From contig NZ_CP036264.1 in NCBI RefSeq assembly GCF_008035925.1, positions 1,015,774 through 1,079,773 of the forward strand: DNA of 64,000 bases. Direction: 5' to 3'. Below are positions 8,128 through 34,907 of this stretch, in pieces (position 1 is the first letter of the stretch; every line of letters starts with the position of its first letter). Source of the DNA: Stieleria maiorica. Its GTDB lineage: Bacteria > Planctomycetota > Planctomycetia > Pirellulales > Pirellulaceae. The notes below the pieces were generated by a model. It saw only the letters and a list, made by a program, of their open reading frames with translations, made no database searches and was not told where the DNA came from. The position numbers and the translations under genes were made by a program.

Positions 8128-8185
8128 CAATAGGACCAATAGGGCAGAGGGGACCCATAAGTCCTATGCGTCCGATTGGTCCCAT
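8128..8185. repeat. Palindromic 'AATAGGACCAAT' element, solo copy
   Basis: Arms AATAGGACCAAT and ATTGGTCCCATT flank a short centre. This is the same family as the paired elements around the four-helix-bundle gene at 32847-32991 and 33631-33768. It lies in the ~540-bp gap upstream of the sulfatase gene (minus strand) and the cupin gene (plus strand). No extra gene is seen in the gap. Confidence 0.75.
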
Positions 8186-8212
8186 TGCATGATCGTTGCT
8201 TCATTCTCGAAG

Positions 8213-8280
8213 GAACGGCAAAACAATGGGGGCAAAACAATTTCAGGCTGTAATCGTTTTGCCCCATCGTTTTGCCCACT
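8213..8280. repeat. Palindromic 'GTTTTGCCCCATCGTTTTGCC' family element, solo copy
   Basis: Left arm GGCAAAACAATGGGGGCAAA and right arm CGTTTTGCCCCATCGTTTTG are complementary around a short centre, giving a hairpin of about 68 bp. The family recurs around the GxxExxY gene (11709-11904 and 12751-12795) and in degenerate form near 26736-26762. Confidence 0.75.
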
Positions 8281-27810: not shown

Positions 27811-30800
27811 ATGATAACTCAAACGCACTGGTACACGGAGACAGACGACGGGCGGATTCTGTGTCAGCTCTGCCCGCGGGCCTGCCGGATGAAGGATGGC
27901 GATCGAGGGTTTTGTTTTGTTCGCAAGAACGTCGGCGGCCGGATGGTGTTGGACACCTATGGCAAGAGCACGGGATTTTGCATCGACCCGATCGAAAAGA
28001 AGCCGCTGAATCATTTTTTGCCCGGGACGCCGGTGCTGAGTTTCGGAACGGCCGGCTGTAATTTGGGCTGCAAGTTTTGTCAAAACTGGGACATTTCCAA
28101 AAGTCGTGAAGTGGCCCGGCTGAGCGACCGGGCGATGCCCGACGAGATCGCGGTGGCGGCGCAACGATCCGGTTGCCGCAGCGTCGCGTTCACGTACAAC
28201 GATCCGGTGATTTGGGCCGAGTATGCGATCGACACGGCACAGGCTTGTCGCGATCTCGGGATCAAGGCCGTCGCGGTGACCGCCGGTTACATCACGCCCC
28301 ATGCCCGCGGTGATTTTTTCGCTGCGATGGACGCAGCCAACATCGACCTGAAAGCATTTTCCGAAGACTTTTATTACAAGGTGACTAGTTCGCACCTGCA
28401 GCCGGTATTGGACACCATCGAGTACGTCTGTAACGAAACCGATTGCTGGGTCGAGCTGACCAATCTGATCGTTCCCCGTGAGAACGATTCGGCCGATGAG
28501 ATCCGGCAGATGTGTACTTGGGTCATGGACCATGTGGGGCCCAACGTGCCGATTCATTTCACGGCCTTTCATCCCGATTTCCGCATGACCGATCGTAACG
28601 GGACGGATTCGGCGACGCTGGTGATGGCTTACGAGATCGCCAAACGATGCGGGTTAAACTATGTGTACGTCGGCAACGTGCACGATGTCGCCAGGCAGAG
28701 CACGTATTGCCACGGTTGCGGCACGGTGCTGATCGAGCGTGATTGGCACCAGTTGGGACACTACACGTTGTCGGGAAATCGATGTTCCAAGTGTGGGGAG
28801 ACGATCCCGGGGGTGTTTGAAAAGGTGCCCGGGGATTGGGGCGGACGGCGGCAGCGTGTCCGGATCGAGCCGCTTGAGCGACCTGAGCGGCCTGAGCAGC
28901 AGCAAGCTGAGCAGCAGCAAGCTGAGCAGCAGCAAGCTGAGCAGCAGCAAGCTGAGCAGCAGCAAGCTGAGCAGCAGCAAGCTGAGCAACCGCCGCCGAC
29001 GGTTCAACCGACGCGTGCACCGAGCGATGCGGCGGGATCGGGACGCGACGAAATCAAACGGCAACCAACGGTGGAGGAGAGTGCAGTGACGATGACAGAC
29101 CTTAACGATCTGACGAAGTTAACCGAGGATCAGAAGCAGACGATCTTGAAAGCGGCGTCGGCGATGGTTCAGGCCGCGGTCGGCGGATTGGATCTGTCCA
29201 CGACGATCGATTCGCTGGGTGAACTGGCCGAGTTGCCGATCGACGGCGTCTTTGTGACCGTCAAGCGTGGTGAAACGCTGCGCGGCTGTTGCGGACGTCA
29301 GGGCGGGGCGATGAAGCTGGGCGAAGCGATGGCGGATTCCGCGGCGCGGACCGCACGCGACCCGCGGATGGCGCCGCTGTCGATGAGCGAATTGCCGTAC
29401 CTGGATCTGTCCGTTTCCCTGCTCGGACCCCTGCGTCCGATCGGTGTCCAAGGCGATCAACGTGAACAGGCGGTCGAAGTCGGCAGGCACGGCTTGCGAA
29501 TCGAATTCGGTCACAACAGCGGGTTGTTGCTGCCTCAGGTCGCGACCGAACAAGGTTGGAACGCACGCCAATTTCTCGATGCCGTGTGTCGCAAGGCAGG
29601 GTTGCCGGCCGGCGTTTGGTTGCGAGACGATGCCCAGGTGATGTTGTTCGACGGCGTTCATTTCGGGTGTAAGTTTGAAACGGATCCTTCGCTGTTGCGA
29701 CACGAGAAGGACCTGCTCAGCAAACATGAATTGTCACTTTGTCGCGATTGGGTGCGCAGCAATTTGATCGCGCTCCAGATCGGAGCGACGCCGATGTATT
29801 ACGCGATGGGCGTCAGCGATCTGGAGGTCCTGGGGTTGATCCTCTCGGTTCGCCATCCCACCCACGGTTCGCATCAGTGGTTGCAGTTGAGCATCAAGGA
29901 CACACGGCCGATGCAAACGTCGTTGTACCAGATGACCGAACATGCATCGCTGTGGTTTGATGAACGTGTGTTTTCGGCGAACGAATGTGAGGTCGAGTTG
30001 GCCGTGTTAAGCGACTGCGTCCATCACGGTCCTGTCGGGGATGCGGACATGCGCGGGACGGATGGTGGAACACGCGCGATGGTGCTGACCGATGGTCGGC
30101 GTTGGGCGATTCAGTACGACCGTGGCCGGGAACCTCAGGCCTTGATCGATGCGGCGCGGGCGATGGAGGCGTTTCGTGGTGAAGAACAACTGTATTCGAT
30201 GCACTGTGATTGTTCGTGCGATTCCATTTCGGTTTCGCTGGGGCCGCGTGCCGACGCCGAATTCACGGTCCGAAAGCCCGCCGTGGCCGGGGCCTTTTAT
30301 GCGGCCGAGGATGCCGGGCGCGAAGCGGAAGTCGATGGGTTGCTGGACGGGTTGCCGCCTTGCGAACAACGCAAGGCGTTTGCCGTGATGGTGCCCCACG
30401 CGGGGCTGCGATACAGCGGATGGGTGGCGGCGGAAATTTGGCGGCGGATCGAGGTCCCCGATCGGGTCTTGATCATCGGACCCAAACACACCGCCGATGG
30501 CGTCGATTGGGCCGTCGCACCGCATCACCATTGGCAACTCAGTGCATCGGTCCAGATCGCCGGCGACGAAGAGCTGGCCCGCGAATTGGCCGAGCAGATT
30601 CCCGGCATGGAACTCGATTCGCGGGCGCACGCGAGAGAACATGGGATCGAAGTCCAATTGCCGTTGATGAATCGGCTGTGCCCCGATGCCCGGCTCGCCG
30701 CGATCGCAATGCACGGTGGCGATTTACAGGCCGTTGAAGCAGCGGCATCGGCATTGGCGGATTGGATTCGGGAACAGGATGAACCTCCGCTGTTGGTGAT

Positions 30801-31086
30801 CAGCAGCGACATGAATCATTTTGCCGAAGATGGCGAGAACCGTCGCCGCGATCGTTTGGCGCTCGACGCGCTGGCCACCGGGGACGGTGCAGAATTGTTG
30901 CGCGTTTGCGGACAGGAAAACATCAGCATGTGCGGTCAGATTCCCGCAGCGATCGTGTTGATGGTGATGCGCAAGCTGGGCAAAACGGCCAAGGCGGAAG
31001 AAATCGCCTATGCGACCAGCGCCGACTACGGTGGTGGAAAAGACCGCGTGGTGGGGTATGCCGGGGTGATTTGGCAGGATGCGTAG
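27811..31086 (+). CDS. Three-part AmmeMemoRadiSam protein: radical SAM enzyme, AMMECR1 and MEMO domains fused
   Basis: 1091-residue cytoplasmic protein. Residues ~1-345 are the AmmeMemoRadiSam radical SAM enzyme with the [4Fe-4S] motif C83-NLG-C87-KF-C90, related to PflA-type activases, plus a C-terminal CxxC pair set (YCHGCG and CSKCG). Residues 362-391 are six EQQQA repeats, a flexible linker. AMMECR1 spans ~445-640, with its hallmark LRGCCG (490-495). Residues ~640-815 are not recognised. MEMO spans ~820-1091, with KPAVAGAFY, VPHAGLRYSG, EHGIEVQLPL, SSDMNHF and MCGQIP, all family metal-site motifs. In most genomes these are separate genes. The system's reaction is unknown; a protein or metabolite modification is presumed. 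Confidence 0.92.
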   Translation: MITQTHWYTETDDGRILCQLCPRACRMKDGDRGFCFVRKNVGGRMVLDTYGKSTGFCIDPIEKKPLNHFLPGTPVLSFGTAGCNLGCKFCQNWDISKSREVARLSDRAMPDEIAVAAQRSGCRSVAFTYNDPVIWAEYAIDTAQACRDLGIKAVAVTAGYITPHARGDFFAAMDAANIDLKAFSEDFYYKVTSSHLQPVLDTIEYVCNETDCWVELTNLIVPRENDSADEIRQMCTWVMDHVGPNVPIHFTAFHPDFRMTDRNGTDSATLVMAYEIAKRCGLNYVYVGNVHDVARQSTYCHGCGTVLIERDWHQLGHYTLSGNRCSKCGETIPGVFEKVPGDWGGRRQRVRIEPLERPERPEQQQAEQQQAEQQQAEQQQAEQQQAEQQQAEQPPPTVQPTRAPSDAAGSGRDEIKRQPTVEESAVTMTDLNDLTKLTEDQKQTILKAASAMVQAAVGGLDLSTTIDSLGELAELPIDGVFVTVKRGETLRGCCGRQGGAMKLGEAMADSAARTARDPRMAPLSMSELPYLDLSVSLLGPLRPIGVQGDQREQAVEVGRHGLRIEFGHNSGLLLPQVATEQGWNARQFLDAVCRKAGLPAGVWLRDDAQVMLFDGVHFGCKFETDPSLLRHEKDLLSKHELSLCRDWVRSNLIALQIGATPMYYAMGVSDLEVLGLILSVRHPTHGSHQWLQLSIKDTRPMQTSLYQMTEHASLWFDERVFSANECEVELAVLSDCVHHGPVGDADMRGTDGGTRAMVLTDGRRWAIQYDRGREPQALIDAARAMEAFRGEEQLYSMHCDCSCDSISVSLGPRADAEFTVRKPAVAGAFYAAEDAGREAEVDGLLDGLPPCEQRKAFAVMVPHAGLRYSGWVAAEIWRRIEVPDRVLIIGPKHTADGVDWAVAPHHHWQLSASVQIAGDEELARELAEQIPGMELDSRAHAREHGIEVQLPLMNRLCPDARLAAIAMHGGDLQAVEAAASALADWIREQDEPPLLVISSDMNHFAEDGENRRRDRLALDALATGDGAELLRVCGQENISMCGQIPAAIVLMVMRKLGKTAKAEEIAYATSADYGGGKDRVVGYAGVIWQDA
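28894..28983 (+). repeat. 15-bp coding tandem repeat, 6 copies
   Basis: GAGCAGCAGCAAGCT repeated six times without change, coding for EQQQA in the linker between the radical SAM and AMMECR1 domains. Copy-number changes would keep the reading frame. Confidence 0.95.
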
Positions 31087-32177: not shown

Positions 32178-32765
32178 CTACAGCACACCTTTGGTGCTGG
32201 GAACGCTGTCGGAGCGTGGGTCGGATTCGGCGGCCATGCGAATCGAGCGGGCGACCGACTTGAACACGCACTCGGCAATGTGGTGTGCGTTGCGACCGTG
32301 ATGCAGCACCACGTGCAGGTTGCAGTTCGCATTGGCGGCAAAGGACTGCCAAAAGTGTTCGACCAGTTCGCTGTCGAAGGTCCCGATCTTGGGCGCCGCG
32401 ATCGGTGCGTGGTACTCGAACGCGTAGCGTCCACCCAAATCGACCGCCGCGGTGACCAGACATTCGTCCATGGGCAGCGTGAAGTGGCCGTAGCGACGGA
32501 TGCCCGCGCGAGTGTCCAGGGCTTTGTCGACCGCTTGGCCGAGCGCGATCCCGATGTCTTCGGCGGTGTGATGGTCGTCCACATGCAGGTCTCCCTTGGC
32601 GTCGACGTCCAGGTCGATCAACGCGTGTTTGGCCAGCAAGTCGAGCATGTGATCGAGAAACCCGATCCCCGAGTTGCGTGTCCCCGAGCCGTCACCGTCC
32701 AGATTGATTGAAAGACGGATGTCGGTTTCACCGGTGGTGCGTTGAATGGTTGCGGAGCGTGACAT
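32178..32765 (-). CDS. hisB: Imidazoleglycerol-phosphate dehydratase
   Basis: Sixth step of histidine synthesis: dehydrates imidazole glycerol phosphate to imidazole acetol phosphate. 195 residues, a monofunctional IGPD without the phosphatase domain. GFLDHMLDLLAKHALIDL, VDDHHTAEDIGIALGQA and LHHGRNAHHIAECVFKSVAR contain the histidine and glutamate manganese ligands. I chose the ATG at 32765 (MSRSATIQRTT) because upstream codons run through a palindromic repeat. It is third in the order hisD, hisC, hisB but separated from hisC by the plus-strand four-helix-bundle cassette. Confidence 0.96.
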   Translation of the reverse strand: MSRSATIQRTTGETDIRLSINLDGDGSGTRNSGIGFLDHMLDLLAKHALIDLDVDAKGDLHVDDHHTAEDIGIALGQAVDKALDTRAGIRRYGHFTLPMDECLVTAAVDLGGRYAFEYHAPIAAPKIGTFDSELVEHFWQSFAANANCNLHVVLHHGRNAHHIAECVFKSVARSIRMAAESDPRSDSVPSTKGVL

Positions 32766-32846
32766 GGGGCGCGAATTTGTAGTCGTTGGGGATAGGAGAC
32801 GCCTGTGGTGTGGGAGACGCCCGCGGTGCGGAAAATATAGCGGTGG

Positions 32847-32991
32847 AATAGGACCAATGGGACCTAGGGGACATATAGGTCGTCTATGTCGCATTGGTCC
32901 TATTTTCCCAGCGGTCGACAGCCAGACCGAATAGGACCAATGGGACAGATGGGACCCATATGTCGTCTATGTCCTATTGGTCCTATTTTCG
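32847..32991. repeat. Left flank of the four-helix-bundle cassette: two 'AATAGGACCAAT' palindromes
   Basis: Two hairpins, each with arms AATAGGACCAAT and ATTGGTCCTATT, are separated by a spacer containing GGTCGACAGCC. The same two-hairpin arrangement recurs after the gene at 33631-33768 in direct orientation. Corresponding bases are exactly 784 apart (for example GTCGACAG at 32914 and 33698), with near identity. Confidence 0.9.
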
Positions 32992-33074
32992 CCGATCGCC
33001 CCCTCTGCAGGGCGGTCCTGGTCTGCTAAGATCGTTGACCTCATCTTTTCTTCAATGCCAACGGAGTATCGGCC

Positions 33075-33635
33075 ATGCCCGGCGGATTCATTCCAGCTCA
33101 TGGCGGTTATCAGGATCTGCGGTCCTACCAGAAATCAGTGATCGTCTATGACGTGACGGTCCGCTTTTGCGATCGCTTTCTGTCCAAATTTGACCGCACG
33201 GTAGATCAAATGATCCAAGCGGCGCGGAGCGGCAAGCAGAACATCATCGAAGGCAGCATGGCGTCGGGGACATCGAAGGAAACGGAAATCAAATTGACCA
33301 ACGTCGCCCGCGCGAGCCTGGAAGAGCTGCTGGAGGACTATCGCGATTTCATCCGCAATCAAGACGGCCAATTGTGGGACAAGGGTTCGCAGCAAGCGTC
33401 GTACGTGCGGCGATTGGGGCGGCAAAAGCGAGAAAGCTATCAGACGTACCGGACGTTCGTGGAAACTCGCGACGGGGTTGTGGTAGCCAACATCGCGGTG
33501 TGTTTGGTTCATCAAGCGAACTATTTGCTTGACCAGCAGATTCGACAATTGGAACAGGCATTTCTCGAAGAAGGCGGACTGCGGGAGCGGATGCACCGGG
33601 CCAGGACCGCCGCCCGCGGGCGGCGACCGCGATAG
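33075..33635 (+). CDS. Four-helix-bundle protein (four helix bundle suffix type)
   Basis: 186 residues, mostly helical, of the four-helix-bundle family that includes 23S rRNA intervening-sequence proteins and the 'suffix' subfamily. DLRSYQKSVIVYDVTVRFCD, QMIQAARSGKQNIIEGSMAS, GTSKETEIKLTNVARASLEE and the Arg-rich C-terminus are typical. Function is not established. It lies alone on the plus strand between the minus-strand hisC and hisB, with direct repeats of a palindromic pair on both sides. Its stop codon (TAG, 33633-33635) lies inside the first palindrome of the right repeat. No reverse transcriptase is nearby, so a DGR accessory role is not supported. Confidence 0.88.
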   Translation: MPGGFIPAHGGYQDLRSYQKSVIVYDVTVRFCDRFLSKFDRTVDQMIQAARSGKQNIIEGSMASGTSKETEIKLTNVARASLEELLEDYRDFIRNQDGQLWDKGSQQASYVRRLGRQKRESYQTYRTFVETRDGVVVANIAVCLVHQANYLLDQQIRQLEQAFLEEGGLRERMHRARTAARGRRPR

Positions 33636-33768
33636 GACCGATGAGTCAGATGGGACATATAGGTCGTCTATGTCGCATTGGTCCTATTTTCCCTGTGGTC
33701 GACAGCCCGACCGAATAGGACCAATAGGACAGATGGGACCTATGTGTCCTATAGGTCCGACCCACCGG
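33631..33768. repeat. Right flank of the four-helix-bundle cassette: second copy of the paired palindromes
   Basis: Direct repeat of 32847-32991 with offset 784, including the shared run ACATATAGGTCGTCTATGTC and spacer GGTCGACAGCC. The first arm is slightly changed (GATAGGACCGAT) and supplies the stop codon of the upstream gene. It ends 5 bases before the hisC stop. Confidence 0.9.
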
Positions 33769-33773
33769 CCGCC

Positions 33774-34838
33774 CTACAGCGATTCGAGGAACCGCTGGAT
33801 CATCATCAAACACGCTTCGCTTTGCTGGTCGGTTCCGACCGAGATTCGCAGCCCGTCGCCCCAATCGGGGAAGTCCATGTAGCGGATCAGGATTTGGTGT
33901 TTTTTGAGGAACTGGTGCAGGTCGGCGTGGCGGCCGCTGGGGTGTTGGCACCAAACAAAGTTGGCGTGTGAGGGCGTCACGTTGAATCCCATCTCCGACA
34001 ATTGCGTCTGTATGTTGGCCCGCGTGGCATTCATTTTCGCCACGACCTCGGCCAACCAGTCTTGCGAGTTGATCGCGGCGGTGGCCGCGATCGTTGCCAG
34101 GTAGTCACAGTTGTAACTGTCTTTGATGTTCGACAGTTTTGCGATCAGCGACGGCTGGGCGACAAGGAACCCGAAGCGGATACCGGCCAAACCGTAGGAT
34201 TTGCTGAGCGTTCGTGTGACGAGGATGTTGTCATGGCGCTGGACCAGGTCCAGGCAATTGAACTCGGCGAAATCCGCGTAGGCTTCGTCGACGACCAAGG
34301 GGCAGGGCAACGAGGCGGCGAGCTGCTCGATCTGCTCGGGCGGGACAACGGTTCCGCTGGGGCTGTTCGGATTGGGCAGCAAGACCAGACGCAGGTCGGC
34401 GTCGCCTTGGCCGAACATCGCCGGCAGGTGCCAGCCATCCAGGAACGGAATCTGTTCCCAGGATGCACCTTGGATATCGGCTAAGGTTCGGTAGAGGATG
34501 TAACTGGGGTAGGGCAGTCGCAACTTCTGGCCTTCGCCGACAAACCCGCGGACCAGGATGGTCAGGATTTCGTCGCTTCCGTTGCCGGCCAAAATCCAAT
34601 CGGGACCGGGCAGACCGAGCGCCTCGGCAGCCGCGCGGCGGAACAGGCTGGCCGTCGGATCGGGGTAGCGATTGAGGGGCCCGGCGGCGGCATCTTGGAT
34701 CGCCGAGACGACCGCCGGCGGTGGCGGGTAAGGATTCTCGTTGGTGTTCAGCTTGATGTACTTGCCCGGCGGCGGTTGCTCGCCCGGCGTGTAGGGCAAC
34801 ATCCGCGAAAGGGCAGGGCGGAGGTCGGTTTTTGACAT
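33774..34838 (-). CDS. hisC: Histidinol-phosphate aminotransferase
   Basis: PLP-dependent transamination of imidazole acetol phosphate to histidinol phosphate. 354 residues. [31 protein letters not shown] and the PLP lysine K213 in [11 protein letters not shown] are all present, as is the C-terminal phosphate-binding arginine region (DGLRISVGT). The start codon at 34838 directly abuts a 7-bp minisatellite that fills the whole hisD-hisC gap, so no purine-rich ribosome site exists (the sequence just before ATG is CAACTCC repeated). Translation may depend on coupling to hisD. Confidence 0.96.
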
Positions 34839-34907
34839 GGAGTTGGGAGTTGGGAGTTGGGAGTTGGGAGTTGGGAGTTGGGAGTTGGGAGTTGGGAGTT
34901 GGGAGTT
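34839..34907. repeat. TTGGGAG heptamer minisatellite filling the hisD-hisC spacer
   Basis: About ten tandem copies of GAGTTGG run from the base after the hisC start codon into the hisD stop codon (TTA at 34906-34908 on the plus strand). The same heptamer forms a second array at 62911-62963. Seven is not a multiple of three, and slippage here would change the intercistronic spacing. Confidence 0.95.

Follow-up and report, generated by a model that had tools for sequence, protein, structure and literature searches.

The stretch of DNA analysed here, hereafter the window, comprises 64,000 nucleotides of the Stieleria maiorica genome (contig NZ_CP036264.1, positions 1,015,774 to 1,079,773 of the forward strand). 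A gene for a four-helix-bundle protein with the TIGR04258 suffix domain lies on its plus strand between hisC and hisB, both on the minus strand, as a preliminary description of the sequence had stated, and palindromic repeats stand on both sides of this gene. HisB, HisC, and HisD each passed the cut-offs of their curated families. The neighbours of the gene are his genes, with no cas operon, and the single-contig genome of 9.89 Mb (G000; genomes and loci are designated by G and L numbers) carries one copy of the TIGR04258 gene. The features are as follows.

32178-32765, minus strand: hisB, host gene on one flank of the proposed insertion (curated family model)
32847-32904, no strand: palindrome 1, hisB side, GGAC/GTCC cores phased at 9 bp; folding z -7.6
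32848-32974, plus strand: direct repeat, left copy; one such unit remains in G013
32905-32929, no strand: spacer holding GTCGACAGCC, left copy
32930-32987, no strand: palindrome 2; folding z -6.2
33075-33635, plus strand: four-helix-bundle gene with TIGR04258 suffix domain, 186 aa (profile scores, AlphaFold2 (AF2) model, and ratio of nonsynonymous to synonymous substitution, dN/dS)
33631-33688, no strand: palindrome 3, overlapping the gene's stop codon, arms imperfect; folding z -4.1
33632-33758, plus strand: direct repeat, right copy, 88% identical to the left
33689-33713, no strand: spacer holding GTCGACAGCC, right copy
33714-33758, no strand: palindrome 4, hisC side, shorter (45 nt); folding z -5.2
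33774-34838, minus strand: hisC, host gene on the other flank (curated family model)
8129-8186 (G000:C1:1023902-1023959), no strand: dispersed solo palindrome (genome search with the palindrome)

The direct repeat that brackets the gene (127 bp, 88% identity) has a spacing of 784, in agreement with the 784 bp described before between matching points. Each 127-bp unit consists of a palindrome, a spacer, and a second palindrome; GTCGACAGCC is present in both spacers, where a shared sequence had been reported. The palindromes (up to 58 bp) are composed of GGAC cores followed by GTCC cores, both at 9-bp steps, some of which are imperfect. The arms quoted earlier are exact on the left side, but on the right side those of palindrome 3 are imperfect and palindrome 4 is shorter. 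The stop codon (33633-33635) falls within palindrome 3, again as described. When 200 dinucleotide shuffles of each palindrome were folded, none folded as well as any of the four. TTTT follows the left palindromes. The sole gene of the cassette is the helix bundle, with no transposase, and the sole duplication, looked at for membership of an insertion sequence or a miniature inverted-repeat transposable element, is the 127 bp of the repeat itself. Rfam gave no family above the gathering score at 32500-34000, and no rRNA there; weak microRNA matches in this region were discarded, as they merely reflect the long hairpin.

The surroundings of 141 TIGR04258 genes were compared: 64 matches in window-related genomes (up to the phylum) and the window itself (set 1), together with 76 of 80 GTDB loci (set 2), these being the best 80 of at least 570 from GTDB species genomes. 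The four omitted loci (L175, L210, L214, and L230) have no open reading frame (ORF) holding the motif; G028 and L235 designate one locus, and some genomes and contigs contribute more than one gene. In self-comparison at lags 4-24, lag 9 and its multiple 18 stand out near the gene. Counted with runs of N excluded, lag-9 windows within 300 bp numbered 24.9 per 1000 upstream and 20.3 downstream in set 1, and 17.2 and 14.4, respectively, in set 2. Beyond 2.5 kb they were 0-0.3 per 1000; at 1.5-2.5 kb, set 1 shows slight elevations (about 2). In the near bins, lag 8 gave 0 throughout, and lag 10 gave 0 in three bins and 5.5 in the fourth, which belongs to set 1. A period-9 array over the threshold was present within 300 bp of 43 of the 141 genes, against 6 of 217 control pairs taken at a distance; the corresponding per-gene counts at lags 8 and 10 were 1 and 2. 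With one gene taken per genome, the array was found in 35 of 115, versus 0 of 64 controls. The arrays mostly face inwards (45 of 58 votes), so the ends of the cassette tend to be complementary. As far as such sequence comparisons go, gene and repeat look like one travelling unit, and the finding is more general than the preliminary description supposed.

The repeat motif itself varies. In the 45 genes with at least three phased cores, among the 129 proteins of the tree (12 of the 141 are omitted from it), the base two positions ahead of GGAC is T in 26 cases, A in 13, G in 5, and C in the remaining one. Placed on the protein tree, this base requires 6 changes, versus a mean of 16.9 and a minimum of 13 in 500 shuffles. 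The agreement persisted when proteins more than 85% identical were thinned (41 rows; 6 changes versus a mean of 16.0) and when the limit was 75% (29 rows; 5 changes versus a mean of 10.0 and a minimum of 6). The host phylum, which is named for 73 of the 129 rows (18 named phyla), requires 44 changes, versus a mean of 49.8 and a minimum of 45 in 300 shuffles. In other words, the repeat goes with the protein, whereas the host phylum is only slightly ordered, as it would be under frequent horizontal transfer.

The same relation was sought in a phylum-wide sample of 392 genomes, of which 30 have a TIGR04258 gene and 362 do not; the pattern searches are taken as drawing on these same 392. The window-type array ATRGGACNNATRGGACNNATRGGAC occurs in 8 of the 30 genomes with the gene (G000, G069, G120, G179, G203, G218, G313, and G381), versus 2 of the 362 without it (G156 and G199; Fisher p 2e-8, kinship ignored). 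Five of the eight gene-bearing genomes have six or more matches each, some of them overlapping. The reversed control of ATRGGACNNATRGGACNNATRGGAC matched in two other genomes, G166 and G211. Within this sample, window-type arrays occur almost exclusively in gene-bearing genomes. The cassette was to be doubted, according to the preliminary description, if the repeats were common genome-wide without any link to such genes. The repeats did turn out to be common; the link, however, holds phylum-wide.

In the genome of the window, the palindrome recurs at about 41 further places (43 distinct places among 72 rows from both strands at E <= 10, a lower bound, with 40 of 52 candidates scored). A second repeat, GGGGGCAAAACAATG or alike, stands beside many of the solo palindromes (window 8129-8240; L010, L014, L015, L017, L019, and others), which suggests that solo palindrome and neighbouring GGGGGCAAAACAATG-type repeat form a composite element. 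Phased GGAC cores also lie on the 3' side of unlinked 16S rRNA genes, at a distance of up to about 300 bp, at L317 and L318 in G000 and at L319 and L320 in G001. A multi-copy 0.9-kb stretch beside palindromes was considered as a mobile element and rejected; it is the 3' end of 16S rRNA. Among the matches listed for G013, 11 solo-palindrome sites were compared with G000: three are shared on both sides, three match on one side only, one lies at a contig end, and four have no clear partner among the compared sites. The homology of close relatives ends one-sidedly at palindromes in the pairs L005/L274, L013/L276, and L026/L275, and at the hisB locus of G001, G002, G005, and G012. Such one-sided homology suggests that the palindromes may behave as recombination sites.

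It might then be asked whether the gene is merely trapped between two palindromes. Dispersed intergenic palindromes whose presence in a genome goes with one gene that they flank are known from repetitive extragenic palindromes (REP), bacterial interspersed mosaic elements (BIME), and the REP-associated tyrosine transposase (RAYT). If REP-like palindromes were moved here by a RAYT or by recombination machinery, the roughly 41 solo copies, the apparent recombination at some of them, and four Y1-transposase matches in the genome would be accommodated. No phased cores, however, were found within 1.5 kb of the four Y1 matches in an exact pattern test. The gene is present in 8 of the 10 phylum-sample genomes with window-type arrays, the motif follows the protein, and gene and palindromes co-occur a second time in G003, as described below; a passenger gene is held to be improbable. 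It should be mentioned that no phased GGAC core was found near the five four-helix genes of this genome that lack the suffix domain; their lag-9 maxima are only 0.47-0.56, and some have period-7 or -8 repeats.

The history of the hisC-hisB site was followed in 14 genomes of the genus. In five outgroups (G003, G004, G006, G008, and G011), hisC adjoins hisB with no gene or palindrome between them, which bears out the earlier proposal of an insertion into an ancestral hisC-hisB junction. No hisC was found within the stretch examined in G007, G009, and G010. The six remaining genomes form one group on the hisB tree (195 codons, some inner forks weak), with the topology ((G001,(G002,(G012,G005))),(G000,G013)). 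A TIGR04258 gene stands beside hisB in G000, G002, and G005. In the others the gene is gone and the repeat is kept, as one palindrome pair in G013, one palindrome in G001, and two palindromes in G012. When collapsed over the direct repeat, the window junction matches G013 with 228 bits over 170 columns, versus 166 for the left copy alone and 196 for the right copy alone. The collapsed G005 junction matches G001 over 214 columns at 83%, without a single-copy control. The exactly one repeat copy in G013, an empty site of the kind predicted beforehand, is what would be expected of a clean recombinational loss.

The simplest reading of these junctions would be one insertion in the ancestor of the six genomes and three clean losses by recombination between the repeats. 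The synonymous distances (dS) of the gene and of hisB are 0.131 and 0.132 between G002 and G005, and 0.79 and 0.56 between G000 and G005. Since gene and hisB diverged in similar proportion, an old gain with about three losses fits better than recent hopping; repeated gain at the same site is a possible alternative history. In addition, hisC is not beside hisB in G001, G002, G005, and G012, and its place in G005 is taken by a DnaK-like gene, whose 324 bits fall short of the curated cut-off. This displacement means that gene order changed at the repeats.

Outside the six-genome group, G003 carries the same gene type at another locus, where four palindromes flank it on one side and a single one on the other. 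Of the 13 palindrome rows of G003, the strongest seven are at this locus, and six weak ones (E 2e-4 to 2e-3) are dispersed. The four genomes nearest to G003 on the hisB tree (G006, G009, G010, and G011) have no palindrome except one row in G009. G003 is a second co-occurrence of gene and palindromes, and answers the earlier suggestion to look for the cassette elsewhere. The mobile cassette then envisaged is upheld as to the unit at a second locus, but not as to recent hopping at the his site. A comparison of the G003 locus through its kinase neighbour was of no use, the kinases being paralogues. A GTTGGTT run adjoins the cassette in G003 (L040). G008 and G010 have a different TIGR04258 type and no such palindrome.

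Between the window gene and the G005 copy, dN is 0.056 and dS is 0.79, which indicates purifying selection on the window gene. An ordinary cellular gene would show this as well. Its hairpins could be an operator or terminators through which the protein only regulates itself, and the dispersed copies could be secondary binding sites or terminators. The inward-facing arrays close to both gene ends, the strong hairpins with TTTT after the left palindromes, and the copies near 16S rRNA genes are all in keeping with this. A selfish unit accounts better for the three close relatives that lack the gene yet have the repeat, for the spread over 18 named phyla, and for the other locus within the genus, and we regard purely regulatory hairpins as unlikely.

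The window protein scores 80 bits with TIGR04258 (NCBIfam, four helix bundle suffix; cut-off 40) and 27.3 bits with TIGR02436 (four helix bundle protein; cut-off 24), and thus passes both; it does not reach the gathering cut-off of PF05635 (23S_rRNA_IVP; 25.7 bits, cut-off 33.8). PADLOC and PHROGs gave no match to it. The AF2 model has a pLDDT (predicted local distance difference test) of 90.3 and matches 8ub8/8ub7 (Avd) by VIA-align Z and by the lead over unrelated rows. The predicted Avd/S23 fold rests on these two measures, since Foldseek alone gave no match at E <= 0.001; a profile search of PDB sequences gave none at E <= 0.01. The nearest solved relative is 2gsc, which is described as five bundles assembled.

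Several known systems resemble this cassette in part. With the 23S rRNA intervening sequence (IVS) and its S23 protein (PF05635/TIGR02436) it shares the predicted fold, the TIGR02436 match over the cut-off, and a single ORF bounded by complementary ends. It differs in lying between hisB and hisC rather than in rRNA, in its PF05635 score below the cut-off, and in having its own dispersed family of phased 9-bp repeats and the suffix domain TIGR04258. Like the REPs, the window palindromes are dispersed, intergenic, and tied to one flanked gene; unlike there, this gene is a helix bundle, not an HuH/Y1 transposase, and the repeats are phased nonamers. Avd of the diversity-generating retroelements is likewise a four-helix bundle, matched by the model in 8ub8/8ub7.

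The Coxiella IVS is reported to hold an S23p ORF, to be excised by RNase III, and to have been gained horizontally and then kept vertically, and it is called selfish (PMC4990558). The window cassette might be such an RNA element: its transcript would fold by the complementary ends and be cut by RNase III, any movement would go through RNA and a reverse transcriptase supplied elsewhere, and the protein would be an Avd-like RNA chaperone. The predicted S23/Avd fold, the inverted complementary flanks, and the horizontally acquired, RNase III-excised Coxiella element (PMC4990558) fit this picture. The cassette, however, is outside any rRNA gene, and the zinc ribbon present in some relatives takes its name from DNA binding. 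Coxiella S23p is apparently not made in vivo (same source), in contrast to the purifying selection indicated for the window gene. Little probability is given to an RNA element.

Some relatives are found at defence loci. The genes that recur within 3.5 kb of the 141 TIGR04258 genes include clusters labelled Cas1, Cas2, Cas4, Cas5, Cas7, Cas8c, and type I restriction. These labels come from BLAST clusters, with hidden Markov model checks at L215 and L221 (cas, over the cut-offs) and at L127 and L203 (restriction-modification, below the curated cut-offs). Nineteen TIGR04258 genes, of which two lie on the same contig, received a cas label, and 15 received a type I restriction label. At L215 (4561-8541) the order is cas5-cas8c-cas7-four-helix-bundle gene-cas4-cas1-cas2, of type I-C, with family models over the cut-offs, and the TIGR04258 gene between cas7 and cas4 overlaps the cas4 start. 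By BLAST cluster, other TIGR04258 genes stand beside type I-C cas genes at L213, L221, L232, G129, G211, G296, G315, G332, and G434. A nonamer array lies in frame inside the helix-bundle ORF at L115 (G152:C655), L136 (G034), and L111 (G313:C214); the in-frame nonamers encode three-residue repeats such as SDR or QST (SDRSDR, QSTESMQS). All seven long variants chosen for a cysteine-rich tail match a topoisomerase-type zinc ribbon, six over the cut-off.

The association of this superfamily with clustered regularly interspaced short palindromic repeats (CRISPR) is partly in print. The legend of one figure on CRISPR-linked proteins in a CRISPR survey lists '23S rRNA IVP', by abbreviation only (PMC10910872). 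As far as that legend goes, the same superfamily is near cas genes there, as at L215, unlike the window copy. Literature searches found nothing on TIGR04258 by name, nothing that links a four helix bundle protein with type I-C CRISPR systems, and, at the level of search listings, nothing on a nonamer repeat tied to the TIGR04258 family; the curators of TIGR04258 may have noted repeats in the family annotation.

Two further observations concern the window. A 7-bp tandem repeat, (GGGAGTT)n, lies at 34838-34907, immediately upstream of hisC. A large ORF at 27811-31086 has, by eye, a radical-SAM-like start and an EQQQA tandem repeat mid-way, and is apparently a multi-domain fusion.

On balance, the evidence slightly favours a widespread gene-repeat cassette, in which gene and phased repeats form one unit and the protein recognises the repeats; of this, binding and spread are what we infer. 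The protein, with its predicted Avd/S23 fold, would bind the phased repeats in the form of hairpins of DNA or RNA. Each subunit might take up roughly one GGAC, the 9-nt period matching the ring of the protein. This is suggested by the five bundles in a ring together with the fixed 9-nt step, and TRAP with its triplets is an analogue for one core per subunit. Binding would control the protein's own transcript and would also maintain or propagate the repeats in the manner of a selfish element, a dependence comparable to that of RAYT on REPs. The cassette would be lost by homologous recombination between the flanking repeats.

A number of observations weigh against this cassette. No array at the threshold was found in 98 of the 141 genes. 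By neighbourhood, a flanking array accompanies 0 of the 19 cas-linked genes, 1 of the 15 restriction-linked genes, and 42 of the 107 linked to neither (cas versus neither, p 0.0003). Arrays are therefore not needed by every member. A looser GGAC pattern distinguishes genomes with and without the gene to a modest degree only (15 of 30 versus 85 of 362 in the phylum sample, p 0.004), occurs also in coding repeats, and its reversed control is common too. The agreement of motif and protein is predicted by linkage through descent as well as by recognition, and establishes a unit but not yet a binding site. The protein tree was built quickly and has two long branches and numerous weak forks. The host phyla were taken from the titles of records, most of them metagenome bins with possible contamination, so that some labels may be wrong. 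No insertion younger than the genus subclade was found among the genomes compared. Between G000 and G003, dS is 2.7 for the gene and 1.2 for hisB, both near saturation; the G003 gene may have its own history, since it is more diverged from that of the window than hisB is.

A bolder proposal, possible though doubtful, is a new selfish class in which a pentameric Avd-like protein counts one GGAC per nine nucleotides and each protein lineage, tied to its own motif, spreads across phyla with its repeat. Some lineages would have been recruited to type I-C CRISPR loci and to type I restriction loci, their arrays lost or moved into the coding region. There is a fair chance that the unit, as a variant of the known selfish gene-repeat elements, forms a class of its own.

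Four-helix-bundle proteins of the S23/IVP type are common. Since the repeat motif varies with the protein, binding can be tested directly and cheaply. The phased nine-base repeats of many genomes may be explained as the partner of one protein family, and the association offers a lead on why such proteins occur in cas and restriction operons.
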